Position numbers and translations under genes: made by a program. A stretch of DNA of 33,043 nt from Verrucomicrobiota bacterium (GTDB lineage: Bacteria > Verrucomicrobiota > Verrucomicrobiia > Limisphaerales > VHCN01). The stretch is from positions 1 through 33,043 of the forward strand of contig VHCN01000035.1 of assembly GCA_016871675.1 (NCBI GenBank), given 5' to 3'. The notes under the pieces were generated by a model, which saw only the letters and a program-made list of their open reading frames with translations, made no database searches and was not told where the DNA came from. How positions within the stretch are numbered: position 1 is the stretch's first letter; each line of letters opens with the position of its first letter. Shown one piece after another: positions 15,822 through 29,565 of this stretch.

Positions 15822-16772
15822 TCAGTCCGCAAGCGACGGAGTCCAGAAACCGTTGATCCGCCGGAGGTCAGTCGTCCCGGGTGCTTGGGTTGCCTCCGGC
15901 TTCAGGGACTCAAGGTGGCCGTCAACGAACTGATACGGGAAAACGCCGTTGTGATACTCGGCCATGTCTTTCGTCAACTTTGTAGGCGCTGCACCCAGGG
16001 TTTGATTCACATGGTCGGTTGGTCCCCACATTTGTCCCCAACCCAGGAACCAACCGTCCCCGGCGGCATTGTCGGGAGAAACGGATTCGGAAAGGAAGAT
16101 GACCTTCGACGGATCGGCGAAAGTGGTCAGCAGGAACGCCGCCTGCCGGGCGTCACTCGCGGCGCTGATGGGACCGACCCAATTGAACCCTGGGGTTATC
16201 GTGTAACTGACGTCGTAGACAATTCCAATTCCCGTGCGACTCGCCCCGCTTGGCGGCCAGTCACCCGGGTTGACCGGGTTCACCGTGTTCAGGATGTAGC
16301 GCCCCATGTTGTTGATCGGCATGGCGTAACTGCGCTTGGTTGCACCTAGATTCCGATAGAACGTAGACAGGGGTTCTTTGTCCGCCGGGCACTTGATTAT
16401 CTTTGGCACGTTCGTCCCAACCCAGTAGGAATTGTATTCGGCTTGGGTGTAACGCGCGCCCACGTAGGTGTGGAGGTAGTCGTCCCACGACCACTCGCTC
16501 GGGTTCGGGTTTCCGGCCGACGGCAGGCGCACAGCGCCGTAGACGATCCGGTCGTCCATGTCGCCCGCGTAAAGAGCCATCGCAACATTCCACTGCTTCA
16601 GGTTGTTGACGCAGGAAATCGCCTGGCCCTTTTTCTTGGCCTTGGCAAGGGCAGGCAGAAGCATCCCCGCCAAAATGGCGATGATCGCGATGACAACGAG
16701 AAGTTCGATTAAGGTGAATCCCACGGATCCTGCCGTGGTGCCTCGGGTGCGCTGACTTGGGTTTGGCTTCAT
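15822..16772 (-). CDS. Prepilin-type pseudopilin with H-X9-DG motif
   Basis: A 316-residue protein. The ATG at 16772 was chosen over a TTG at 16799. A short basic leader ends in Gly18, after which the mature protein begins [18 protein letters not shown], the classic type IV pilin/type II secretion N-terminal helix; prepilin peptidase would cut between Gly18 and Phe19. The C-terminus has [16 protein letters not shown], which fits the H-X9-DG motif of pre-pilin processing-associated families abundant in Planctomycetes and Verrucomicrobia. These large pseudopilin families occur in tens to hundreds of copies; their function is unclear. It lies 38 bases downstream of a proline-rich lipoprotein gene, suggesting cotranscription. 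Confidence 0.93.
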
Positions 16773-16810
16773 ATGAAAAGGGTTCCGGTTCTTGAGCAAA
16801 CGACCATTCG

Positions 16811-17356
16811 CTATTTCTTGGTCATCCGGACTTCAATCTTCACCTTGTCGATCACGAACTTCATGTCGGCTGGCGGGTTTGGCAGGTAAGGCAGCATGCC
16901 AGCCAGGATCAACTGCTCGAGATTGTCCGGCAACTTGTTGTTCGCAGCATGGTAGTTCTTCAGGGCTTCAGTGACTTCCTTCAACCCGATCAATGGAACC
17001 GGCGGCGGCTGGGCCTTCTGGCCCGGCGTGGGCGGTGGCGGCGGCGGCGCTGACGCGCCCCGGCCTGATCCAGCGGGCCGCTGGATCGCGATCGGTGGAG
17101 GTGGTGGCGCTGTGAAAGTGACCGGTTGGGCCTTCGGGGCCGCAGTCGCAACTTCCGGTGTCGGGGCAGGGGTCTCAATCGTCGGCGCCGGCGGCTGGAC
17201 GGGAGCCGGAGCGGGTTCCTTTGAGACGACGGGCTTCGCGGCAATCACCGGCGGCGGCGGCGGCTCGTGCTTCCGGCATCCGACCGTGGCGAGGATCAAT
17301 CCTGCGGCTGCGAATGCCAAACTGCGCGCGCACCTAGGGGCAGACAGGTGTTTCAT
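16811..17356 (-). CDS. Proline-rich lipoprotein with pilin-like C-terminal domain
   Basis: A 181-residue protein with a basic start ([15 protein letters not shown]), a hydrophobic stretch and ATVGC, a plausible lipobox with Cys near 27 (the -3 residue is Thr). A Pro/Ala-rich linker (~30-118) would span the periplasm or outer surface. The last ~60 residues are ordered: [39 protein letters not shown] and a strand-rich [14 protein letters not shown]. This resembles the globular end of GspG-type pseudopilins and the C-terminus of the lipoprotein encoded at 17651-18037. It is the first gene of a group with the pseudopilin downstream. Unknown function; a role with the pseudopilin is inferred from position. 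Confidence 0.75.
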
Positions 17357-18086: not shown

Positions 18087-18710
18087 TTATTGCTCGGGCA
18101 CCTTCAGCAGTTCGTCCGCGGAATAGTTGCGGCCGGCCTGCGCGCTGGTCGCCTCGCGGATGGCCTTGACCTGGGCGGGCTTCACCAGCGAGGCGTTGTG
18201 GCCCCAGTCCTTGTTGCGGCGGATGAACGTCGTGACGGCGGCGATGTCGGCGTCCGAAAGCGGGTCGCGCCACGGCACCATCGCGTTGTTCCACTCGGTG
18301 ACGGCGTCCTTGACCTTGACCTTGATCGGACCTTGCACGCCGTCGAGCACGATGCGGATGACGCGGTTCGGTCCCTCGGCGAGCACCCAATCGGAGCCCG
18401 CAAGCGGCGGGAACTGGCCGGGCGTCCCCATGCCGTTCGGCTGGTGGCACGCGGAACACAGCTTGTATACCTCCGCGCCGCGCAGCATCAGCTTCTCCTC
18501 CTCGGAAAGGTCGCCCGTCGGCGGCGGTGTCTTGAGTGTCTCGGCGTAAACGTCCGCGCGGAAGCCGCCGCCGTAGGTCTCCAGGTAGAGCTGCCCGCCA
18601 AAAAACAGCGCCGCGAGCATCAACACGGGCCACATCGGCAGGCCGGCCTTGCCGAAGGTCGGTTCCGGCAGTTCAGGCAGCGGCGCGCTGGATTGCGGGT
18701 CGGGGTTCAT
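18087..18710 (-). CDS. Membrane-anchored monoheme cytochrome c (CcoP-like)
   Basis: A 207-residue protein. One transmembrane helix (~23-45, GLPMWPVLMLAALFFGG) places the C-terminal cytochrome domain in the periplasm. It has a single CSACH heme site (~85-89), GTPGQFPPLAGSDWV, and a candidate Met ligand in NNAMVPW. Canonical CcoP of cbb3 oxidase has two hemes; only one is visible here. It is the last gene of the ACIII operon and its ATG overlaps the stop of the CcoO-like gene by four bases (ATGA). I infer that it passes electrons on from ACIII together with the CcoO-like subunit. Being an independent cytochrome c of the same complex is also possible. Confidence 0.88.
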   Translation of the reverse strand: MNPDPQSSAPLPELPEPTFGKAGLPMWPVLMLAALFFGGQLYLETYGGGFRADVYAETLKTPPPTGDLSEEEKLMLRGAEVYKLCSACHQPNGMGTPGQFPPLAGSDWVLAEGPNRVIRIVLDGVQGPIKVKVKDAVTEWNNAMVPWRDPLSDADIAAVTTFIRRNKDWGHNASLVKPAQVKAIREATSAQAGRNYSADELLKVPEQ

Positions 18711-19678
18711 GGCTTGGGCGCGGGGGCGGACGGTGCCGCGTTCGTGGACGGCGTGGGAATCCGCGGCGGGCGCGGCACGGCGCGTTCGGCGAGCGATGCA
18801 TCGTGCCGAAGGCTCAACAGGTAGGCGACCAGCGCCTTCGCGTCGGAGGACGGGATGATTTCGAATCCATCGGACGGAGTGTCCTTGCCAAGTTGGATCG
18901 CGTCGGGCGATGGCTTCGCGCCGGGCTTGAGCGGGCGCTTCTCGAAAAGGAACGGATATGCGGGCATCGTCGAGCCCTTGGCCACGGCGGCGGGGTTGTA
19001 AAGGTGCGCGAGGTGGTGACGCTCGCGTTCGATGGCTTGCAGCGCGTCATTGGTCCGCGCCGCGGGACTGAAGCTCCAAATGCCCACGAACTTCTCCGGC
19101 GCGCGGCTGCCGACGTTCGCGAGGTCGGGCCCGGCGCGCAGGCTGCCGGGCAGCGGCGGGTTGTCGAAGAGGTAATCGCGCGCGACGCTACCGCGCGGGC
19201 CAAGCCCGGCCGCGATGTCGGCGCCGAGGTTCTTGAAGGTGAGCTCGGTCTTCACCTCGATGTCGGTGAAGGGTTTCATCGCCTGGTTCGCGGCCGCAGC
19301 GGTGGTGTCGGCTGCGATGACGACGGGCAGTTTGCCGGGGGTCTGTTGCGCGGTGTCCGCCGACACCGAGGGGAAGCGGGCGCGGAGCGCGGCCACAACC
19401 GCGGGCGCGTTCGTGCCCGGATCGGTGATGACGGCGCCGAAGGTGATGCCGCCCTGCCGGACCTGCTGCGAGTGGCAGTAGAAGCACCCGTTCGCGCGAT
19501 AGACCACGGCGCCCTGTTGCGCGAGTCCGGGACGCGGCGCGGGATACAACTCGGAGCTGTTGAGGATGGCCGCGGGTTGAAGCGCGCCGAGATGGAGCTG
19601 CGAGCCGAAGATGAGCGCCGCCCACGAGCACGCGAGCGAGAACAGCACGCCGACGAAGATGAGCGCGCCGCGCGTCAT
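18707..19678 (-). CDS. ccoO: CcoO-like cytochrome c (cbb3-type subunit II)
   Basis: A 323-residue protein with one N-terminal helix (~4-26, GALIFVGVLFSLACSWAAL) and a periplasmic heme c domain. The heme motif CFYCHSQQVR (~65-74) is the CcoO/FixO signature GCYGCHSQ-like element, and GPDLANVG plus HLYNPAAVAKGSTMPAYPFL (Met ligand ~238) complete it. Relative to canonical CcoO there is an extra ~80-residue segment between ~83 and 160, rich in Ala/Thr, and an extended Pro/Ala tail. The open frame continues further upstream, but the ATG at 19678 gives the correct start and overlaps the stop of the CcoN-like gene by four bases. Partner: the ligand-poor CcoN-like protein encoded just upstream. Confidence 0.88.
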   Translation of the reverse strand: MTRGALIFVGVLFSLACSWAALIFGSQLHLGALQPAAILNSSELYPAPRPGLAQQGAVVYRANGCFYCHSQQVRQGGITFGAVITDPGTNAPAVVAALRARFPSVSADTAQQTPGKLPVVIAADTTAAAANQAMKPFTDIEVKTELTFKNLGADIAAGLGPRGSVARDYLFDNPPLPGSLRAGPDLANVGSRAPEKFVGIWSFSPAARTNDALQAIERERHHLAHLYNPAAVAKGSTMPAYPFLFEKRPLKPGAKPSPDAIQLGKDTPSDGFEIIPSSDAKALVAYLLSLRHDASLAERAVPRPPRIPTPSTNAAPSAPAPKP

Positions 19679-21108
19679 GACGCCGCCTCCGCGTCCGCCT
19701 GCCCCTTGAACAGGGCGAGGACGTTTTCCTTGCAGCGGCACTGCCGGAAATGGCAGGCCGCGAGCCAGAACACATGCGCGACGAACGCGAGATTTGCCAG
19801 ACCCACGAGCGCGACGCCCGCGAAGGCCAGCATCGGCACGGGCAGCGCCATCACGCCGCCCACGGGCGAGGACTTCGCCGCAAAGACCGCGGGCGCGGCG
19901 AGGCTCACCTGCGCCAGCACCGTCCCGGCGAGCGTTCCCCAGAAATGCGCGCGCGGCAGGCCGGCACACGGCCAGGCGTGCGACGCAAGCCGGGGCGCGA
20001 GCTCATAAACCGCCGCGAATAGCAGGCTCGACACGGCGCCGGCGAGCAGCAGTTGATCCTGCGCCGTCGCAAGATTTGAGAACCGCAGTCCTTCCGCAGG
20101 CCCGCGGAACCCGGAGAAGGCGGCGCGGAGGCTCCAGCCGAGAAAGAAGACCAACCCGATGAGCGCGAAGGCGAGCGCGGGATTGTTGCGCACGCGGCTG
20201 AACGCGCCTTTCCACGTCATGAACAGGTTGCCGGTCACCGCCAGCGCGGGGCCGAGCGTGAGCGCGGTCGCGGCGATGCTCACCGTGATGAACCACGCCG
20301 GGATGGGCGCGCCCGCCGGGATGCCGCACCAACCGCCGAGCAAGACGAGCGTCCAGAAACCGAACACCGCGAGGTCGCGGCTGTGCAACGGACGCGCGGT
20401 GAGCTTCGGCACGATGTAAAAGGCGCACGCCAGCGCGAACGGAACGAGCACGAGCAACTGCAGGTTGCCGATGAACCACCAGTTGACCACCGATTGCGTG
20501 ATGCCGCGCACGGGATGGACGTGCAGCAGCCACAGGGCGGTCGAGTAAATCCACGGGAACCACAGCAGCGCGAGCAGCAGATACCATTGGGTGGCAAACA
20601 ACCCGCGCTCGCGGCGCGCGTGCATCGTCACGAGCGCGTGCCCGCCGATGATCAGATACGCGACGAGCAGCAGCGGCGCGGCGTAGCGCGGCATCTCGAA
20701 CCACTCGTGGCCCGAGTTGTCGCCGAGCAGGACGCCGCAGACGCCGAGCGTGACGCCGAGGTTCCAGAGCTTCGACGCGATGAGGAGCGAGAACGGACCG
20801 GACAGCGCGGCGCGCCCGAGGCGGACGATGAGCCACAGCGCGACGGCGAAAGCGGCCTGCAACGTGAAGCCATAGAGCAGCGCGTTGAAGGCGGCGGGCT
20901 TCACGCGGCCGTGCGTGAACCACTGGCACCCGGCGAGAAACCCGGGCGCTTGAAGCTGCCAAGCCGCGATGAGACCCAGCACGGTCGCCACGACGAGCCA
21001 CAGCGAGGCGCTGATAAGAAGGAAGGCGACCGGCCCGCGGCACGACGCGTCGAGTTCCGCGTTGGTCGGCGCGGCGGCGCAATTCGTGTTGTCGTTGGCG
21101 GCGGTCAT
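19675..21108 (-). CDS. CcoN-like membrane protein lacking heme and copper ligands
   Basis: A 477-residue polytopic protein (about 12 helices) whose closest family is cbb3 oxidase subunit I. Alignable landmarks include GRVKPAAFNALLYGF (71-76 region, family PLHTNA), VNWWFIGN (208-215, family VQWWYGHN), YIVPKLTARP, WCGIPAGAP (260-268, family WAGPHHLHY), TAQDQ (348-352, family GHVHS) and YELAPRL (368-374). In each place the metal-binding histidines are absent: Ala73 for the low-spin heme His, Gly214 and Pro264/Ala265 for CuB, Gln350 and Gln352 for the hemes. The alignment is from memory of the family. The ATG at 21108 was chosen where conservation begins. Probably an inactive scaffold for the CcoO/CcoP-like subunits; a heme-free quinone-binding or structural role is inferred. 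Confidence 0.85.
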   Translation of the reverse strand: MTAANDNTNCAAAPTNAELDASCRGPVAFLLISASLWLVVATVLGLIAAWQLQAPGFLAGCQWFTHGRVKPAAFNALLYGFTLQAAFAVALWLIVRLGRAALSGPFSLLIASKLWNLGVTLGVCGVLLGDNSGHEWFEMPRYAAPLLLVAYLIIGGHALVTMHARRERGLFATQWYLLLALLWFPWIYSTALWLLHVHPVRGITQSVVNWWFIGNLQLLVLVPFALACAFYIVPKLTARPLHSRDLAVFGFWTLVLLGGWCGIPAGAPIPAWFITVSIAATALTLGPALAVTGNLFMTWKGAFSRVRNNPALAFALIGLVFFLGWSLRAAFSGFRGPAEGLRFSNLATAQDQLLLAGAVSSLLFAAVYELAPRLASHAWPCAGLPRAHFWGTLAGTVLAQVSLAAPAVFAAKSSPVGGVMALPVPMLAFAGVALVGLANLAFVAHVFWLAACHFRQCRCKENVLALFKGQADAEAAS

Positions 21109-21185: not shown

Positions 21186-21605
21186 CTACTCGAACGGGCT
21201 CGGCTTCTCCGGCGGCTTCGGCGGCAGCGCCGTGGCCTTCTCGACGCGCTCGATGAGGTTTGACCGCGCCGCGGCCGGGCTCCTGTAGCGCTCGAGCGTG
21301 AGTTCCATCGCGCGGTCCACGGGGAGTCGCACGAGTCCTTTCGTCTTGTCCTGCCAGCCGTAGGTGCCGAGCGCCTCGGCGGATTCCTTGCGGACCTCGG
21401 CGAGCTTTTCGGCGCGCTCCTTTGCGCGGACGGGCGCCTTCGAGGCCTCCGGCGCGGTGTAACGGATCATCGCGCGGTCGAGGGCCAGCACGATGAGCAG
21501 CGCGCCCAGCACCGCGAAGAAATACACGCACCGCGTCCGGCAGGACTCGCTGCAGCATTCGTTGGAATCGTGTTCGGAGTTCACGGGTGACTTCGGTCGG
21601 TTCAA
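21186..21605 (-). CDS. Small single-helix protein of the ACIII operon
   Basis: A 139-residue protein: a cysteine-rich polar N-terminus (NECCSESCRTRC), one transmembrane helix (~27-45, VYFFAVLGALLIVLALD), then a charged helical tail. The element GTYGWQDKTKGLVRLPVDRA followed by MELTLERY recurs in small proteins found in ACIII and caa3 oxidase loci of several phyla (from memory, not checked), where it has the form YGWVDKxxGxxRIPIxRAMEL. The start overlaps the actF stop by four bases, so it belongs to the operon. It may be an accessory subunit comparable in place to ActG, but no homology to that subunit can be shown. Function unknown. Confidence 0.75.
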   Translation of the reverse strand: MNRPKSPVNSEHDSNECCSESCRTRCVYFFAVLGALLIVLALDRAMIRYTAPEASKAPVRAKERAEKLAEVRKESAEALGTYGWQDKTKGLVRLPVDRAMELTLERYRSPAAARSNLIERVEKATALPPKPPEKPSPFE

Positions 21606-22852
21606 TGCGCCGCGCCCGGGCCTTTCGCGGGGTCGACGTAAACGCCCATCGTCTCGGCGATGCGCGGGTCCTTCTGCGGATAAGGCGGGTGGGCGTTGAA
21701 CGCGGCGAAGAACCGGTTGATGAGCACGCCGCCGATCACGGCGAGGCTGAGCACGTCAAAGACTCCGATTCGCGGCCCGTCCGGGTAAATCTTCGGCATC
21801 ACGTTGTAGGTCATGTCCAGGTAGTGCATCAGCCATGCCCAGGCCGCGAACGGCACCATGATCGCGGCGTTCAGCTTGGTGTCGATCCGCAGGAAGGTAA
21901 GGAACGGCACGAAGAAGTGGCCAAAGATGATGAGCATGCCAATCCACCACCAACCGCCCTTCTCCCGCAGCACATACCAGAAGGTCTCCTCGGGGATGGC
22001 CGCGTTCCAGATGAGGAAGTATTGGCTGAAGTGGATGTAGGCGTAGAACACCGTGAACGCGAAGAACAGCACGCCGATGTCGTGGAACTGCCGCGGGCCC
22101 GCCACCGACGCGAGAGGGCCGCGTTTCTTGAGGATGAGCGTGATCACATAAACCGTCGCCATCGTCGTCCACACGCTGCCTGCGAAATAGTAGACGCCGT
22201 ACATCGTGCTGAAGAACTGGTGCATCAGCGACTTCATCCAGAAAATGCACGCGAGCGTCAGTGAGAAGGCGAAGATGAAGATGCCGCCGGCCGCATACTT
22301 GCGCATCGCGCGTGTGTGCCCGGCGGCGCCGGTCTTGTCCTGCGCGAGCGAGTGGCGGCGCAACCCGTGCGTGAGCCAGCCCCAGATGCCGAAGAGCGCG
22401 AGCGACACGAGGACGAATGCGGGCTTGTTGAAAAGCGCGTGCTTCGCGTGCAGGGCGTGATCGGCCTTCGCGGGATCCATCCACTCGTAGATGAGGTTTT
22501 CGGGGCCGGCGAGCAGCACGTTGGCGAGGATCGGCAGGAAAAGCACCAGCATCCACGGGCACAGCAGGCAGGCCATGTGCTCGCAAAAGCGCCGCGTCGG
22601 CACTGACCACATCGCATCGAAGAGATGATGGATCAGCACGAGGAACAGCCCGCCGAGGCAAAGGCTGAGGAAGAACATGTAGGCCGTCAGATACGAATAC
22701 CCGGCCGCCTTGATCCACGGCGGCGCGGCGTGCGGTGCGGCAGCTCCTGTCTGGGCCGCCTCGGCGACGCCGCCCAACACCGCGAACATCACGGCCGCGG
22801 CGAGCCATCCGGAGAACCGGCGCCAGAAACCGGATTGTGCAGACTCGTTCAT
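21602..22852 (-). CDS. actF: Alternative complex III quinol-oxidising subunit ActF
   Basis: A 416-residue polytopic protein of about ten helices, NrfD/PsrC-like. Its distinctive segments are AGYSYLTAYMFFLSLCLGGL near the N-terminus, VPTRRFCEHMACLLCPWML, WMKSLMHQFFSTMYGVYYFA and FYAYIHFSQYFLIWNAAIPE, which match the second NrfD-type subunit of ACIII. A possible signal peptide (to ~residue 32, GVAEAA) precedes the first helix. ActC and ActF form the two homologous membrane subunits; ActF carries a proton half-channel in known structures, and quinol oxidation is assigned mainly to ActC. Only three bases separate it from actE, and its stop overlaps the next start. Confidence 0.93.
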   Translation of the reverse strand: MNESAQSGFWRRFSGWLAAAVMFAVLGGVAEAAQTGAAAPHAAPPWIKAAGYSYLTAYMFFLSLCLGGLFLVLIHHLFDAMWSVPTRRFCEHMACLLCPWMLVLFLPILANVLLAGPENLIYEWMDPAKADHALHAKHALFNKPAFVLVSLALFGIWGWLTHGLRRHSLAQDKTGAAGHTRAMRKYAAGGIFIFAFSLTLACIFWMKSLMHQFFSTMYGVYYFAGSVWTTMATVYVITLILKKRGPLASVAGPRQFHDIGVLFFAFTVFYAYIHFSQYFLIWNAAIPEETFWYVLREKGGWWWIGMLIIFGHFFVPFLTFLRIDTKLNAAIMVPFAAWAWLMHYLDMTYNVMPKIYPDGPRIGVFDVLSLAVIGGVLINRFFAAFNAHPPYPQKDPRIAETMGVYVDPAKGPGAAH

Positions 22853-22855
22853 GGT

Positions 22856-23500
22856 TTACTTCAGCAGCGCCCGCGCGGCGGGCGGGACGTCGTTGGTGGA
22901 GCCAAGCTTCGATAGTTGCAACGCCCGCACGTAGGCCACGATCGCCCACCGGTCCTCGACCGTGATGTTGGCCGCGTATCCCTGCATCAGGTTCCGGCCG
23001 TGTGAAATCACGCCGAACAGCTCCCCGTCCGGCTGCGACACGATCCGCTTGTCGTGCAACGTCGCCACGACGGCCATCGCGCCGATTTTCTTCGTGATGC
23101 CGTTCCCGTCGCCCTGCGGACCGTGGCACGGCGTGCAACTGATATTGAACCGCTCCCGTCCGCGCGCCATCAGCTTCTCGTTCACCGCGAGCGGGATCGT
23201 CGCCACATGATTCGTCGTGCCGGGCACCAGTCCCGTGTTCACCGCGTGTTCCTCGAACGGAAGCACCCTCGCCCCTTTGACGTCCAGCGCCGTCGCGCGA
23301 GCGACCGTCCCGGCGACCGGCGGGCGCGAGTCCATGCCATCCGCAAAAAACCCGCCGGCCTCCTGCGGCCGCACCTTGTTCTGACGCACCATGTCCGGAA
23401 TGATCTCGATCGGCGGGCGGCGGGAATGATCGCCGCGCTTGCCCGCGACGAGGTAGACCGTCGCAACCGACAGCACAAACAGGAGGACGATGTATCGCAT
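22856..23500 (-). CDS. actE: Alternative complex III monoheme cytochrome c ActE
   Basis: A 214-residue periplasmic cytochrome c anchored at its N-terminus (RYIVLLFVLSVATVYLV). The region RPPIEIIPDMVRQNKVRPQE followed by AGGFFADGMDSRPPVAGTVA is the ActE hallmark. A single CTPCH heme site is at ~122-126, with MQGYAANI supplying a likely Met ligand near 172. In ACIII, ActE receives electrons from ActA or hands them to the terminal oxidase. The start codon overlaps the stop of actD (TAATG). Confidence 0.93.
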   Translation of the reverse strand: MRYIVLLFVLSVATVYLVAGKRGDHSRRPPIEIIPDMVRQNKVRPQEAGGFFADGMDSRPPVAGTVARATALDVKGARVLPFEEHAVNTGLVPGTTNHVATIPLAVNEKLMARGRERFNISCTPCHGPQGDGNGITKKIGAMAVVATLHDKRIVSQPDGELFGVISHGRNLMQGYAANITVEDRWAIVAYVRALQLSKLGSTNDVPPAARALLK

Positions 23501-24039
23501 TATTCCTCGACCTCCTCGATGTGCGAACTGCCCGCCGCCTCCAGCATCTGCCGGGCCGACGCGGGCGAATACTTCGGGTCCGACGTCTCGATCACGATGA
23601 AGAACTTGTCATGGGTCACCTGCGCGAAGCGCCGGTTTTTGAGCAGCGGATGATGCAGCCGCGGCAGGCGGTTGAGGAACAACATGCCGCCGAGCGACCC
23701 GAAGCTCGCCAGGAGGATCGTGCATTCGTAGCTGACCGGGAACGCGAAGAACGGGCTGAACATGGGCTTGCCGCCGACGACGATCTGGTAATCGAACGCG
23801 TTCATCCACCAAATCATCAGCATGCCCGCCGTGTAGCCGGTCGCTCCTCCGAGGAAACTGAACCAGCCGACCTTCGATGACTTCAAACCCATCGCCGCGT
23901 CCATGCCATGCACCGCGAACGGGGTGTGGACGTCCCATCGTGTGTAACCGGCATCGCGCACCTTTTCGGCGGCGTGCAGGACGTCGGCCGTGCGCGAGAA
24001 CTCCGCCACCAGCCCGTAGATTTTGGCGCCCGCAGCCAT
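23500..24039 (-). CDS. actD: Alternative complex III subunit ActD (DUF3341)
   Basis: A 179-residue membrane subunit with two hydrophobic helices (about 60-85, SFLGGATGYTAGMLMIWW, and 100-125, AFPVSYECTILLASFGSLGG) and soluble ends. Family landmarks are IYGLVAEFSRTADVLHAAEK, RDAGYTRWDVHTPFAVHGM and PVSYECTILLASFGSLGG, followed by FLNRLPRLHHPLL. DUF3341 is the ActD family; it bridges the membrane subunits and the periplasmic part. The ATG at 24039 was chosen (the frame is open upstream but inside actC), and both neighbours overlap it by one or two bases. Confidence 0.93.
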   Translation of the reverse strand: MAAGAKIYGLVAEFSRTADVLHAAEKVRDAGYTRWDVHTPFAVHGMDAAMGLKSSKVGWFSFLGGATGYTAGMLMIWWMNAFDYQIVVGGKPMFSPFFAFPVSYECTILLASFGSLGGMLFLNRLPRLHHPLLKNRRFAQVTHDKFFIVIETSDPKYSPASARQMLEAAGSSHIEEVEE

Positions 24040-25478
24040 TAGTGGTGCCCTCCGTGCTTCGCGCCGCCCAGCGGATGATGCGGATCCGCCTGCGGCGTCA
24101 CGCCCTTGACCTCGCTGATCGCAATGACCGGCAGGAACCGCATGAACACCAGGAAGCACGTCATGAACAGACCGAAGCTGCCCACGAACGTCAGCACGTC
24201 CACGTAAGTCGGGCTGAAGTCGCCCCAGTTGGACGGGATGTAATCCCGCGTGAGCGACGTGGCGATGATGACGAACCGCTCGAACCACATGCCGACGTTC
24301 ACGAACGCCGCGATGATGAACACCGCCACCATGTTGGTGCGGACTTTCTTGAACCAGAACAGGTGCGGGCTGATCACGTTGCACGAGACCATCCACCAAT
24401 ACGCCCACCAATACGGGCCGAACGCCCGGTTCTTGAACGTGTCCAGCTCATACTGGTTGCCGCCATACCACGCGATGAAGAACTCCATCCCGTAGGCGTA
24501 GCCCACGATCGAACCCGTCGCGAGGATCACCTTGCACATGAGCTCCACGTGCCGGACGGTGATCACATCCTCCAGCTTGCACAACGTCCGGATGGGAATC
24601 ATCAGCGAAAGCACCATGCCGAAACCGGAGAAAATCGCGCCCGCGACGAAGTAAGGCGGGAAAATGGTGGTGTGCCAGCCGGGCACCTGCGACACCGCGA
24701 AATCGAACGACACGATCGAGTGCACCGAGAGCACCAGCGGCGTCGAGAGACCCGCGAGGATCAGGTAGGCCTTCTCGTAATTGCTCCAGTGCCGGTTCGA
24801 TCCCGTCCAGCCCAGCGCGCCGAGGCTGTAGAAGAACTTGCGAATCTTCGTCTTGCACCGGTCTCGCATCGTCGCCAGGTCCGGGATCAAGCCCATATAC
24901 CAGAACAGCAGCGACACCGTGAAGTAGGTCGAGACCGCGAACACGTCCCACAACAGCGGCGAGCGGAACTGCGGCCAGATGCCGTAGGCGTTGGGAATGG
25001 GCGGCAACCACCAGACCGCATACCAGATTCGCCCCACGTGGATGACGGGGAAGGTGCCGGCGCAGATGACGGCAAAGATGGTCATGGCCTCGGCGGCGCG
25101 GTTGATGGAGGTGCGCCACTTCTGACGGAGGAGGAAGAGGATGGCGGAGATGAGCGTGCCGGCGTGCCCGATGCCGATCCAGAACACGAAATTGGTGATG
25201 TCCCACGCCCATGCGACGGGCTGGTTCAAGCCCCACACGCCCACGCCCGTCGAGACGAGGTAGGCGATCATGATGCCCATCATGGACATGACGCCGAAGC
25301 TGATGAGAAACGCGGGCCACCACCACTTCGGAGCCTTGCCCTCGGCGATGCCGGCGACCGTGTCCGAGATCCAGCCGAAGCTGTGGTTGTTCAGCACCAG
25401 CGGTTCCCGGGCGAGTTCCGCCGGGGGCGCCGCGACCTGCACCACGGCCGGGGTCGATTGTTGCGAAGCGGCGTCCAT
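24039..25478 (-). CDS. actC: Alternative complex III quinol-binding subunit ActC (NrfD-like)
   Basis: A 479-residue polytopic subunit with about ten helices. It starts with a soluble Pro/Ala-rich stretch, then [78 protein letters not shown] and [20 protein letters not shown], all characteristic of ActC. In solved ACIII structures this subunit holds the quinol site near the periplasmic side, facing the ActB [3Fe-4S] cluster; the conserved His, Asp and Arg residues in those helices are present here. The tail is His/Gly-rich (GGAKHGGHH). The start overlaps the actB stop. Confidence 0.95.
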
Positions 25479-28400
25479 CAGTGCGCTCCTTTCTTCGCGC
25501 CGCCGGCGGCGGGGCCCGAGCCGTGCGGTTCAAAGGGGGAACCGCTGCGCTTCGCGTATTCGCTGATGCTGTGCGGCATCGGGTGTTCCTTGTAATCGGG
25601 CATTGCCGGGTTCGGGTTGCGCACCCGCGCGAGGTAGGTCAGGCGCGGACGCGTGTCGAGGAAGCCCAGCACGGCGTAGTCGCGCTGCTGCTTCTTGAGC
25701 TTCGACACCCGGCTCGACGGATCAAGCACGTTGCCGAAGACGATTGCGTCCGCGGGGCACGCCTGCTCGCACGCGGTCTGGATTGTGCCGTCGCGGACCT
25801 CGACGTCACCGCTGGCGCCGGCCTTGACCTTCTGCGAAATCTTGGCCGCCTCGACGCGCTGCACGCAGAACGTGCACTTCTCCATCACGCCGCGCATGCG
25901 GATGCTCACCTCGGGGTTCTTCGCGAGCTTCACGAGGTCCATCTCGTCCGCGCCGCGCCCGGCGAGCGGGCCCTTGTAGAGGTTTTCGAGCGGGCGCTTG
26001 TTGAAATCGAAGAAATTGAACCGGCGGACCTTCCACGCGCAGTTGTTCGAGCAATAGCGCGTGCCGACGCAACGGTTGTAAGCCATCACGTTGATGCCTT
26101 CTTCGTCATGCACGGTGGCATTGACGGGGCAGACGCTCTCGCACGGCGCGGCCTCGCAGTGCTGGCAGAGCATCGGCTGGTTGACGACCTGCGGCTCGTC
26201 AATCCACTCCTTCTTCTGCTGCGCGGGGTCGGCAAGCACGAGGTTGACCTCGTCGGTCTTGCCGGGCGACGACGTGAGGTTGTTCGCGAAGGAACCGAGC
26301 AGGCTCGCGGCCTTCTGCTTGAGCGGCGTGCCGGTGAAGTAGCGGTCAATGCGCAGCCAGTGCATCTCGCGGTTGCGGTGCACCTGATCCTTGCCGACGA
26401 TGGGGATGTTGTTCTCGGCCTGGCACGCGATGACGCACGCGTTGCAGCCGACGCATGCGTTGAGGTCAATGCTCATCCCCCACTGGTGCATCGAGCTCAT
26501 GAGGTGCGGATGGCTCTGGTAGGGGTGCTTGTAAATCGTCAGCGGCTGCCCTTTGTCATCCTTCGGGATGTGCGCCGAGTGCGAGGGCGCATCGAGGTCC
26601 ATGTTCCGGGCGAAGTCCGGGTGCTCGTTGAAGTCCTTGAGGTTCGCCTCGCGCACGACGGGGCGGCCTTCCATGGACCAGTGGTCCTGCGTGGTGACGA
26701 GCTTGTAAGTCGCGCCGGTCTTGGTGAGCTTCGCGCCGGGCACGATGAGCGAGTCGGTGCGCAGCGCGTAGCCGTTGAAGCCGGTGCGGCCGCGGTTCGA
26801 ATTCTCGTCGTTGCCGTGGAAGTTGGCGATGCGCCCGCCTTTCTGGCGTCCCCAACCGAGCGCGATGCCGGCGGTGTAATCGGCCTGTCCCGGCTGAATC
26901 CAAACGGGGCCGGCGACCTTGCGGCCACCGACGGAAATCTCGACCACGTCGTTGTTCTCGAAGCCGAGCTCGACCGCGGTCTTGCGGCTGAGGAGCAGCG
27001 CGTTGTCCCAGACAATCTTGGTGATGGGGTCGGGCAGTTCTTGCATCCAGCCGTTGTTCGCGAACCGGCCGTCGTCGAGCTTGGTGTCGCGGAACAGCAC
27101 CACCTCGATGCTTGCGGCCGACGGCGCGGCGGGCGCGGTCGCCTTCGCCAGTTCGTCGGCGATGTTCTGCGCGGCAAGGCTGGTGGCCGGTGGCTGGTGG
27201 TCGGCGGCGCCGCCGCCGAGGAAGCCGTCGTGGAGGTAATGCTTCCACTTTTCCTCGTCCATCTTGCCCCCGGTGAGCGACGCAAAGGTCTCGCGCGTGA
27301 TGTCGTGGGACTTGAGCGACTCGCACGCGCCGAGGCGGGCGAGAACTTCGGTCTCGGTGAGTCCTGCGTAAAGCGGCTCGATGAGGGGTTGCACGGGGAC
27401 GAGCGTGCCGTCGCCCGTGCGCGCATCGTCCCACGATTCAAGGTAGTGCGCGGTGGGCAGGTGCCAGCCATTCGCGCCGAGTGCGGAGAAGGTTTCGTCC
27501 TCGTGCGTGCCGAGGCGGACGATGGCCTTCGCGTTCTTGAGCGCGGCGGTGAAGTTGAGCTGGGCGGGCGCGGTGAACGCCGGATTGCCGCCGAGGATGA
27601 CGAGCAGGTTCACGCCGCCGGTGCCGAGTTGCGCCACGAGCGCCTCGATGCCGGCGGCCGGGGCGGGCGCGGCGCGGAACACGACGGAGTTGCCGATGGC
27701 GCCGAGCAGCATGTTGAGCAGGTGCGCGACGAGATGGACCGCGGGCGGCTGGCGGTGTCCGGCGAGCACGAGCGCCTTGCCCTTGTTGGCGACAAGATCC
27801 TTCGCGCATTCGAGGATCCACTCGCGCTTCACGCCGGCGGGCAACGGGCACTTCTGTGCGAGGGTGGCGAAGGCGGGCATGCCGGGCTCGACGGCGGCGG
27901 CGATGGCCGCGGCGACGGCGATGATTTGTCCGGAGGGGCAGCGGAGGCGGTGGTCGGCGTTCGCGCCGGTCTGTGACATGATGGCCTCGACGCAGTAGAG
28001 GCGGCTCATGGTGGCGTTTTGCTTGGCCGGACCCGATGGGGCCCGGGTGGAACCGAGCCCTGCCTCGGTGATCTTGCGGCCGTTGGCGAAGCCGCGGATG
28101 TGGCGGGCGGAGTCTTCCTCGGTGCTGATGAAGTCGCTGTCCAGGGAAAGGATGACTTGGGCGTTTTCGAGTTTGTATTGGGGCTGGACGCTTCGTCCGT
28201 AGGCGAGGCTGGCCGCGCGGGCTGCGACGCCGAGGTCAATGGCGTCGTGGAAGAACCACCTGGCCTCGGGCCACCTGGCGCCGAGGGATTTGACGAGTCG
28301 GTCCCGGGACGGCGAGGACGACGATTCCATGAGCACCGCAACGCCGGCTCCCCGGCTCGCGCTGAACTGCGTTGCAAACTGGGCCAGCTGATCGAGCGCG

Positions 28401-28918
28401 GCCTCGCGCTCGATGCGGTTGCCTCCCTTGGTGAACCGCTGCGCGCGGTCGGGGTCGTAGAGGTCGAGGAGGGAGGCTTGCGCGTAAAGGTCGGAGCCGC
28501 CGTGGGCGCGTCCGGCCACCGTGTTGATGGGGTGCTCGCGGTTGCCCTCGACCTTGATGGGGCGGCCTTCGTGCGATTTCACCACAAGCGGCACGGCGCC
28601 GTGGCGGGTGGGCATCGCGGTGGCGAAGCTCTGAGAAACGCCGTGGATGTAGTTCTCGGGTTGCTTGCCGAAGGGGTAAATCTTCTCGACGGGGCGGCGG
28701 CATCCGGTGAGCGCACCCGCGCCGGCAAGCGCGAAGCCCGCCGTCATCAGCCGCATGAAGTCGCGCCGGGTGACGGGGTCCTTGAGTTCGCCCGCGCCGT
28801 CGACGAATTCGCGCTCGACCCAGGCGCGGGCCTCGGGTGTGCCCTCAAGGGCTTCGAGGCTGCGCCAGTATTGGACGCCGTTGTCGGGCTCGCGGCAGGC
28901 CGGGGGAATGGTCTTCAT
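25478..28918 (-). CDS. actB: Alternative complex III iron-sulfur/molybdopterin-like subunit ActB
   Basis: A 1146-residue periplasmic subunit. The N-terminus carries a Tat-like motif [18 protein letters not shown] (~49-66) followed by TGC, which also fits a lipobox with Cys73. A large domain related to molybdopterin oxidoreductases (~75-780) comes next; in ACIII it binds no molybdenum. The C-terminal ferredoxin-like region has cysteines at about 822, 825, 828, 832; 918, 921, 926, 930; 950, 956, 960; 1015, 1018; 1050 and 1054. That makes 15, which fits three [4Fe-4S] clusters plus one [3Fe-4S]. It moves electrons from the quinol site to the hemes of ActA. The ATG at 28918 overlaps the actA stop by four bases. 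Confidence 0.95.
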
Positions 28919-29565
28919 CGGTGGCAGGCGGAGCAGCTCGTGGAGGAAAGGACCTTCCAGTCGTGGGCGAATTTCTTGCCGTGGGTCTCGGTGAAGTTGG
29001 CGGGGCGCTGCCAGTCGAGGTTGTAGATTTCGGCGGGCGGGCGCAGCCTGGCCTCGGGCGCGTTGTGGCATTCAAGGCAGAAGGGCATGCCCAAGGGCTT
29101 GGCGTGCCAGACTTCGTCCATCTCGTTGACTTTCCCATGGCACTCGACGCAGGAGACGCCGCGGTTCACGTGGACGGAGTGGTTGAAGTAAACGTAGTCG
29201 GGCAGCTTGTGGATCTGCACCCACGGGATGGGCTTGCCGGTCGCGGCGGAGTCGCGCACGAGCGCGAGGCGGGGGTCGTCCTTGAGCACCTGATTGTGGC
29301 AGTTCATGCACGTGCTCGCGGCGGGGATGTTGGAATACCAGGACCTTTCGACGCCGTTGTGGCAGTAACGGCAGTCAATCCCGAGCTGGCCGGCGTGTAT
29401 GGTGTGCGAGAATGCGACCGGCTGGATGGGTTTGTAACCAACGCGCGTGTAGCCGGGATGCGCGTAGTAATACACGCCAAACGTGCCCGCGCCGCCAAAC
29501 AGCGCCGCGCTCAGCCCGACCATCAGCGGGAGCTTGTTCGTCCACTTGGGGAAGATGTCAGACAT
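28915..29565 (-). CDS. actA: Alternative complex III pentaheme cytochrome c ActA
   Basis: A 216-residue membrane-anchored pentaheme cytochrome. One N-terminal helix (~12-34, LPLMVGLSAALFGGAGTFGVYY) is followed by five CxxCH sites: CRYCH (~65-69), CMNCH (~86-90), CVECH (~139-143), CLECH (~163-167) and CSACH (~211-215, three residues from the end counting the final H-R). The spacing and the YAHPGYTRVGYKPIQPVAFS segment match ActA of other ACIII operons. It is the first gene of the operon; about 600 bases without a gene lie upstream. ActA takes electrons from ActB and passes them to ActE or a soluble acceptor. Confidence 0.95.
   Translation of the reverse strand: MSDIFPKWTNKLPLMVGLSAALFGGAGTFGVYYYAHPGYTRVGYKPIQPVAFSHTIHAGQLGIDCRYCHNGVERSWYSNIPAASTCMNCHNQVLKDDPRLALVRDSAATGKPIPWVQIHKLPDYVYFNHSVHVNRGVSCVECHGKVNEMDEVWHAKPLGMPFCLECHNAPEARLRPPAEIYNLDWQRPANFTETHGKKFAHDWKVLSSTSCSACHR

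Follow-up and report, generated by a model that had tools for sequence, protein, structure and literature searches.

A CcoN homologue without heme and copper ligands

The window analyzed here is contig VHCN01000035.1 (C35) at its full length of 33,043 nucleotides, part of a 3.6-Mb draft genome, 97% complete, from a Verrucomicrobiota bacterium. Its minus strand carries an operon for alternative complex III (ACIII), followed by genes for a small protein (Sml) and for homologues of CcoN, CcoO, and CcoP, subunits of the cbb3 oxidases (Table 1). The CcoN homologue, the subject of this study, has lost every ligand of heme b, heme b3, and CuB. The operon upstream of it holds the complete set of ACIII components, ActA through ActF, with a pentaheme ActA, a monoheme ActE, ActB, two NrfD-like subunits, and ActD; the heme motif and axial methionine of ActE are kept in all relatives.

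Table 1. Genes of the ACIII operon and selected codons of the CcoN homologue in the window
Feature	Position	Strand	Evidence and remarks
ActA, pentaheme cytochrome c of ACIII	28915..29565	-	Pfam cytochrome c7 / NCBIfam QrcA-like; five CxxCH; synteny
ActB, iron-sulfur subunit of ACIII	25478..28918	-	1146 amino acids; ferredoxin-type Cys motifs; synteny
ActC, NrfD-like quinol-binding membrane subunit of ACIII	24039..25478	-	Pfam NrfD, 7e-23
ActD of ACIII	23500..24039	-	Pfam ActD, 1e-62; sole ActD in genome
ActE, monoheme cytochrome c of ACIII	22856..23500	-	Pfam Cytochrome_CBB3
ActF, membrane subunit of ACIII	21602..22852	-	Invariant place and homology in ACIII operons; no Pfam match
Sml, small one-helix protein	21186..21605	-	139 amino acids; conserved in most loci, between ActF and CcoN; unmatched in Pfam and NCBIfam
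CcoN homologue without heme b, heme b3, and CuB ligands	19675..21108	-	477 amino acids
Cys61 codon, in loop preceding helix 2	20926..20928	-	
Ala73 codon, at position of heme b ligand H60	20890..20892	-	Coordinates counted from ATG at 21108
Gly214 codon, at position of CuB ligand H207	20467..20469	-	phmmer and MAFFT
Pro264-Ala265 codons, at positions of CuB ligands H257/H258	20314..20319	-	phmmer and MAFFT
Gln350 and Gln352 codons, at positions of heme b3 ligand H345 and heme b ligand H347	20053..20061	-	phmmer and MAFFT
CcoO-like monoheme cytochrome c	18707..19678	-	323 amino acids; CFYCH motif; Pfam FixO, 4e-16; start inside CcoN end
CcoP-like monoheme cytochrome c	18087..18710	-	207 amino acids; Pfam Cytochrom_C, 2e-12; axial Met144

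An original prediction, made from the sequence alone, had described an intact, full-length CcoN-like gene at these coordinates, within a tightly packed operon. The coordinates proved correct. Stop codons occur throughout the plus strand, and the minus strand holds an uninterrupted frame of 477 amino acids from an ATG at 21108 to a TGA at 19675–19677. A longer in-frame open reading frame (ORF) extends to 21558; the start was set at 21108 because the longer version overlaps the small ORF upstream and because homologues begin near this position. Four-base overlaps (ATGA) connect CcoN with CcoO and CcoO with CcoP, so that the three are probably translationally coupled, and a gap of about 77 bases separates CcoN from the small ORF, in agreement with the predicted packing.

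The protein matches Pfam COX1 (E = 9.7e-28, 97.6 bits), its top NCBIfam model is ccoN (100 bits, well under the cut-off of 583), and residues 32–403 align to Pseudomonas stutzeri CcoN (3mk7_A) in a phmmer search against the PDB (E = 2.9e-19). Modeling, which the original prediction had proposed as a check, gave a confident AlphaFold2 structure when the protein was run with 54 relatives (predicted local distance difference test score [pLDDT] 92.3, predicted template modeling score [pTM] 0.92). In Foldseek searches with this model, cbb3 CcoN chains rank first (3mk7_A: TM score 0.85, root-mean-square deviation 2.0 Å, 21% identity), followed by NorB and other superfamily members at TM scores of 0.76–0.78. 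Sequence homology and a subunit I fold of 12 helices place the protein in the heme-copper oxidase superfamily, and the model predicts that the CcoN fold is retained with the cofactor sites gone.

Subunit I of the heme-copper oxidases is defined by its histidines. Alignment to P. stutzeri CcoN reproduced exactly the six ligand positions that had been predicted as substituted, and with all ligands gone, oxygen reduction is as unlikely as had been proposed. The cross-linked tyrosine is absent as well (Y251 corresponds to Gly258), and the K-channel positions S240 and Y237 are occupied by Ala247 and Arg244. The protein thus shares with P. stutzeri CcoN its homologous sequence, fold, and downstream CcoO and CcoP homologues with c hemes, but it lacks the heme b, heme b3, and CuB ligands, the tyrosine, and the K-channel residues that mark a C-type (cbb3) oxygen reductase. 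The module differs further in that its CcoP has one heme motif rather than two, and no CcoQ or CcoS was seen within the operon. Another altered active site on the same superfamily fold is that of NorB; NorB, however, retains all heme ligands, whereas the window homologue has lost all of them.

Other histidines of the protein were considered as hidden substitutes. None of those at positions 66, 134, 157, 196, 198, and 445, which the original prediction had named as candidates whose placement at ligand positions would contradict it, is conserved among relatives. The sole conserved histidine, H388, equals P. stutzeri H384, occurs in every canonical copy as well, and does not serve as a ligand; substitute ligation was therefore rejected. 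A separate feature is Cys61, which occurs in 55% of stripped copies against 3% of canonical ones and possibly forms a disulfide or contacts a partner.

Within the module, the window CcoO exceeds its counterparts in most other families by about 90 amino acids and has an insert that separates the heme motif from the C-terminal part. Past the operon, positions 15822–17356 encode a prepilin-like protein with an N-methylation motif and a proline-rich protein, with no respiratory genes among them.

Recurrent ligand loss among ACIII-linked CcoN proteins

Two samples were examined for ligand loss. In the first, 286 genomes of the same class were searched, relatives were found in 216, and 20 kb around the best match was taken from 80; this sample is biased, the query being itself a stripped copy, and its counts exclude the window copy and the P. 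stutzeri reference. The second consists of 80 named GTDB contigs found with an alignment query, a scan with a single protein having returned nothing. The gene order ActABCDEF–small ORF–CcoN–CcoO–CcoP is preserved in nearly all of the 80 same-class and 80 GTDB loci.

All seven key residues (HHYHHHH) are present in 25 of the 80 CcoN proteins of the first sample. The other 55 are altered, and most of these keep either no ligand or a single one. The replacement residues vary by lineage (AHSSRRW, ANGPQQQ, WGGPSEA, and LNATYHW among others). In the GTDB sample, drawn from Limisphaerales, Pedosphaerales, Opitutales, and Chthoniobacterales, 39 copies are canonical and 41 altered, all within the same operon; the named contigs suggest that the window comes from the Limisphaerales/Pedosphaerales branch of the class, which is probably Verrucomicrobiia. 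Canonical CcoN thus occupies the same operon in sister lineages of stripped copies, and the canonical copies of many Opitutales are direct relatives. As a control, four homologues from outside the class that are unlinked to ACIII (L200–L203) all carry the full ligand set. The search for orthologues in ACIII operons that the original prediction had suggested therefore revealed the same loss in many genomes, class-wide and repeated, and its occurrence in dozens of genomes, including closed isolate genomes, excludes chance or sequencing error.

The number of origins was assessed on a reference tree of ActB, ActC, and ActF, with CcoN left out. If ligands were never regained, this tree implies 17 losses, or 9–13 when forks with poor support are collapsed. 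A rapidly built CcoN tree (FastTree) groups most altered copies with only 3 changes of state, which hints at a single loss followed by spread of the stripped copy between ACIII operons through gene replacement. A mixture-model CcoN tree instead places altered copies beside canonical copies of their own family, with Shimodaira–Hasegawa-like approximate likelihood ratio test (SH-aLRT) support of 96% (L037 and L113 with L071/L077/L080), 95% (L053 with L047/L038/L044), and 97% (L101, L105, and L106 with L068/L050/L061/L070). The family clades tested as constraints in the CcoN tree were not rejected (approximately unbiased test, p-AU 0.11–0.24), and most of the altered copies compared in this way find their best matches for CcoN, CcoO, CcoP, and Sml among canonical members of their own family. 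The clearest case lies within one genus, where canonical L068 and stripped L101 are 94% identical in ActC but only 47% in CcoN. A long-branch effect is the best explanation for the exclusive stripped clade seen with FastTree. Single origin and spread, upheld by neither the mixture-model tree nor the best matches, thus retains a slight probability; judged from these sequence comparisons, the loss is repeated and in place.

Several loci depart from the two common states. One family (L051:9388–10872, L052:9291–10793, L067:1270–2754, and L180:1636–3138) is half-stripped (HNxQRYH), retaining H60 and H347 with the CuB and heme b3 ligands lost, and may represent a half-way state with only the low-spin heme b. 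Two near-canonical copies, L050:7581–9050 (HRYHHHH) and L054:365–1816 (HHCSHHH), differ at one or two of the CuB and tyrosine positions; early steps of loss or altered chemistry are both possible. At L110:1568–3772 (G239:C63), a stripped CcoN is naturally fused to a heme-c (CcoO-like) part in a protein of 735 amino acids. In family f25 (L083, L090, L092, L097, L213, and L214) and in L204, an extra CcoP-like monoheme cytochrome replaces the small ORF between ActF and the stripped CcoN.

Selection and the features retained

The original prediction had proposed a change of role rather than decay and a comparison of nonsynonymous to synonymous substitution rates (dN/dS). Ratios estimated by the NG86 method for single pairs of stripped CcoN genes are 0.108 at dS 0.41 (L105/L106), 0.15 at dS 0.25 (Methylacidiphilum strains SolV/Kam1), and 0.18 (L056/L057), with 0.13–0.24 in other pairs; most close pairs lie at 0.11–0.24, and most pairs overall at 0.08–0.24. 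One pair of low dS and odd composition (L074/L089) gave 0.72, an unreliable value since the ratios of its CcoO, CcoP, and ActE are high too. Long open frames without internal stops are found at all 55 altered loci. Stripped CcoN is under purifying selection, and it shows neither the relaxed selection nor the broken frames of a pseudogene.

CcoN nevertheless evolves faster once the ligands are lost. At ACIII p-distances of 0.3–0.4, the CcoN p-distance is 0.60 between stripped pairs and 0.31 between canonical pairs, about twice the rate of the canonical sister at equal ACIII distance. Such acceleration would be expected of an oxidase remnant heading for loss, but this explanation is highly improbable given the dN/dS of about 0.1–0.2 in unsaturated pairs, the open frames, the retention of fold positions, and the persistence of the stripped gene at family and order depth. 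With an intact predicted fold and intact syntenic copies in many genomes, a change of role is the interpretation that stands.

What is retained differs sharply between the subunits. The CxxCH motif is kept in CcoO at 55 of 55 and in CcoP at 53 of 53 stripped loci, and the axial methionine of CcoP in 100%, whereas the CcoN ligands survive in only 3–24% of stripped copies. Among columns invariant in canonical CcoN, retention in stripped copies is 18% at 14 active-site and K-channel positions versus 67% at 105 others; the seven ligand and tyrosine positions were fixed beforehand, and the set of 14 was partly picked after the column list had been viewed.

Electron routes and the proposed role of CcoN

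A survey of COX1 genes in 76 genomes identified five in which the ACIII-linked CcoN is the only strong COX1, and all five copies are canonical; as these genomes come from three genera, they amount to about three independent cases. The only stripped genome without another COX1 (G239) has cytochrome bd. The window genome contains one further COX1, an A-type on contig C43 whose CoxII has a CuA motif and no c-heme domain, so that this oxidase needs a c-type donor; cytochrome bd was not found in this genome. In several families, A-type cox genes come immediately after CcoP and share its strand; the loci are L083, L090, L092, L097, L102, L103, L105, L106, L196–L199, L213, and L214 with stripped copies and L064, L070, and L084 with canonical ones. 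CcoG was considered as a marker of cofactor insertion and was found uninformative: it follows a separate conventional cbb3 locus and is absent where the canonical ACIII-linked CcoN is the only oxidase.

Based on these data, a simple model would describe the stripped protein (CcoN') as an ACIII-linked cbb3-type subunit I that no longer performs its chemistry but persists in the membrane as a heme-free scaffold for CcoO and CcoP, which relay electrons from ACIII to a separate oxidase. We consider this model probable. The ancestral operon would have encoded an ACIII–cbb3 pair, in which CcoP and CcoO received electrons from ActE or ActA and delivered them to CcoN. After another oxidase had become able to take the electrons, the residues for heme b, CuB, and the proton channel would have been free to go, and the membrane body carrying CcoO and CcoP, perhaps touching ACIII, would have been retained as an adaptor. 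From the linkage and co-inheritance of the genes, we infer that CcoN'OP is located in or on the ACIII complex. Electrons would then flow from menaquinol through ACIII (ActB, ActA, and ActE) and the c hemes of CcoO and CcoP to the separate terminal oxidase, which in the window genome would be the A-type enzyme on contig C43; the former oxygen-reducing part would now be structural only.

A comparable arrangement is found in the ACIII-aa3/caa3 supercomplexes of Flavobacterium johnsoniae and Rhodothermus marinus (PMC5928083), where a c-type heme domain held beside ACIII hands electrons to an A-type oxidase. In those complexes the bridging heme belongs to ActA or to a CoxII domain; here, where the arrangement is proposed from genes alone, it would belong to CcoO/CcoP on a heme-free CcoN.

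Of the roles suggested in the original prediction, the cytochrome-holding scaffold is best supported because the heme motifs of CcoO and CcoP are kept without exception. Alternatively, CcoN' could be purely structural, needed for the assembly or stability of ACIII or of an ACIII–oxidase supercomplex, with the hemes of CcoO and CcoP kept for folding rather than relay. The unvarying place behind ActF in all loci and the retention of the fold with no other cofactor required fit this view; preservation of the CcoP heme motif and axial methionine at every stripped locus goes beyond a need for folding, and A-type cox genes follow in several operons, which makes the purely structural role rather unlikely.

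A role for CcoN' in proton movement, or in binding a different cofactor (a heme with other ligands, a metal, or a quinone), is likewise improbable. The half-stripped family could have a heme-b-only form, and the enrichment of Cys61 would suit a new site, but apart from this partial case no newly conserved histidine, methionine, or cysteine spans the stripped set, and unrelated residues stand at the ligand positions in different lineages. The proton-handling role that had also been suggested is weakened by the loss of K-channel residues S240 and Y237 along with the ligands, and the quinone-binding role found no support in the analysis.

Several observations weigh against the relay scaffold. The axial methionine of CcoO is kept in 85% of stripped loci rather than 100%, and retention at surface positions of CcoN is not biased to the periplasmic (docking) side (p = 0.70), so that selective conservation of the periplasmic face was rejected. 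The A-type oxidase genes of the window genome lie on a separate contig from the ACIII operon. Finally, this genome encodes a Rieske protein next to a bc1/b6f-like cytochrome b (L256 and L258; G000:C50). ACIII as its only quinol oxidizer was accordingly rejected; ACIII–CcoN'OP need not be the sole route to the A-type oxidase, and cytochrome c may be reached from quinol by two routes.

Published descriptions of this type of locus assume an active enzyme. An ACIII and C-type oxidase has been reported only in verrucomicrobial methanotrophs and Opitutaceae (PMC8498564); the ACIII-linked locus of Methylacidiphilum is stated to encode a high-affinity cbb3 oxidase (PMC6688271), and PMC8498564, PMC10205796, and PMC11102522 likewise list a cbb3 oxidase. 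These modules have the same order behind ActABCDEF as in the window. In the closed genomes of Methylacidiphilum SolV, Kam1, and V4 (L196, L250, and L251), which carry pmo genes, however, the ACIII-linked CcoN reads S60, E207, S251, S257, H258, F345, and V347. Because the ligands are missing there as in the window copy, the statements of a high-affinity cbb3 oxidase at this locus find no support in the ligands, and the link drawn in PMC6688271 between this oxidase and the high oxygen affinity of Methylacidiphilum needs another explanation. An A-type oxidase immediately follows the ACIII-linked module in all three strains; the other COX1-family genes of SolV, typed from scores and sequence, are two A-type, two B-type-like, and one NorB-like. 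No report of CcoN ligand loss was found in the open-access literature.

More generally, we propose with moderate confidence that CcoN has turned many times, independently, into a heme- and copper-free scaffold in an ACIII-based supercomplex, bridging ACIII to a second oxidase, and that verrucomicrobial methanotrophs have an adaptor of this kind in their "cbb3 oxidase." If true, the recurrent, selected loss of all histidines in a large bacterial class would constitute a clear respiratory-chain pseudoenzyme, and the sister genomes with the active form would offer a natural experiment on the construction of oxidases and supercomplexes. For genome annotation, stripped copies pass the Pfam COX1 cut-off of 34.8 bits (97.6 bits for the window copy and about 50 for Methylacidiphilum), and surveys that count them as high-affinity oxidases therefore over-call microaerobic capacity. 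SolV, Kam1, and V4 are cultured, which opens the question to testing now. Among them, Kam1 differs from SolV and V4 in that its ActC is seemingly split into two open frames.

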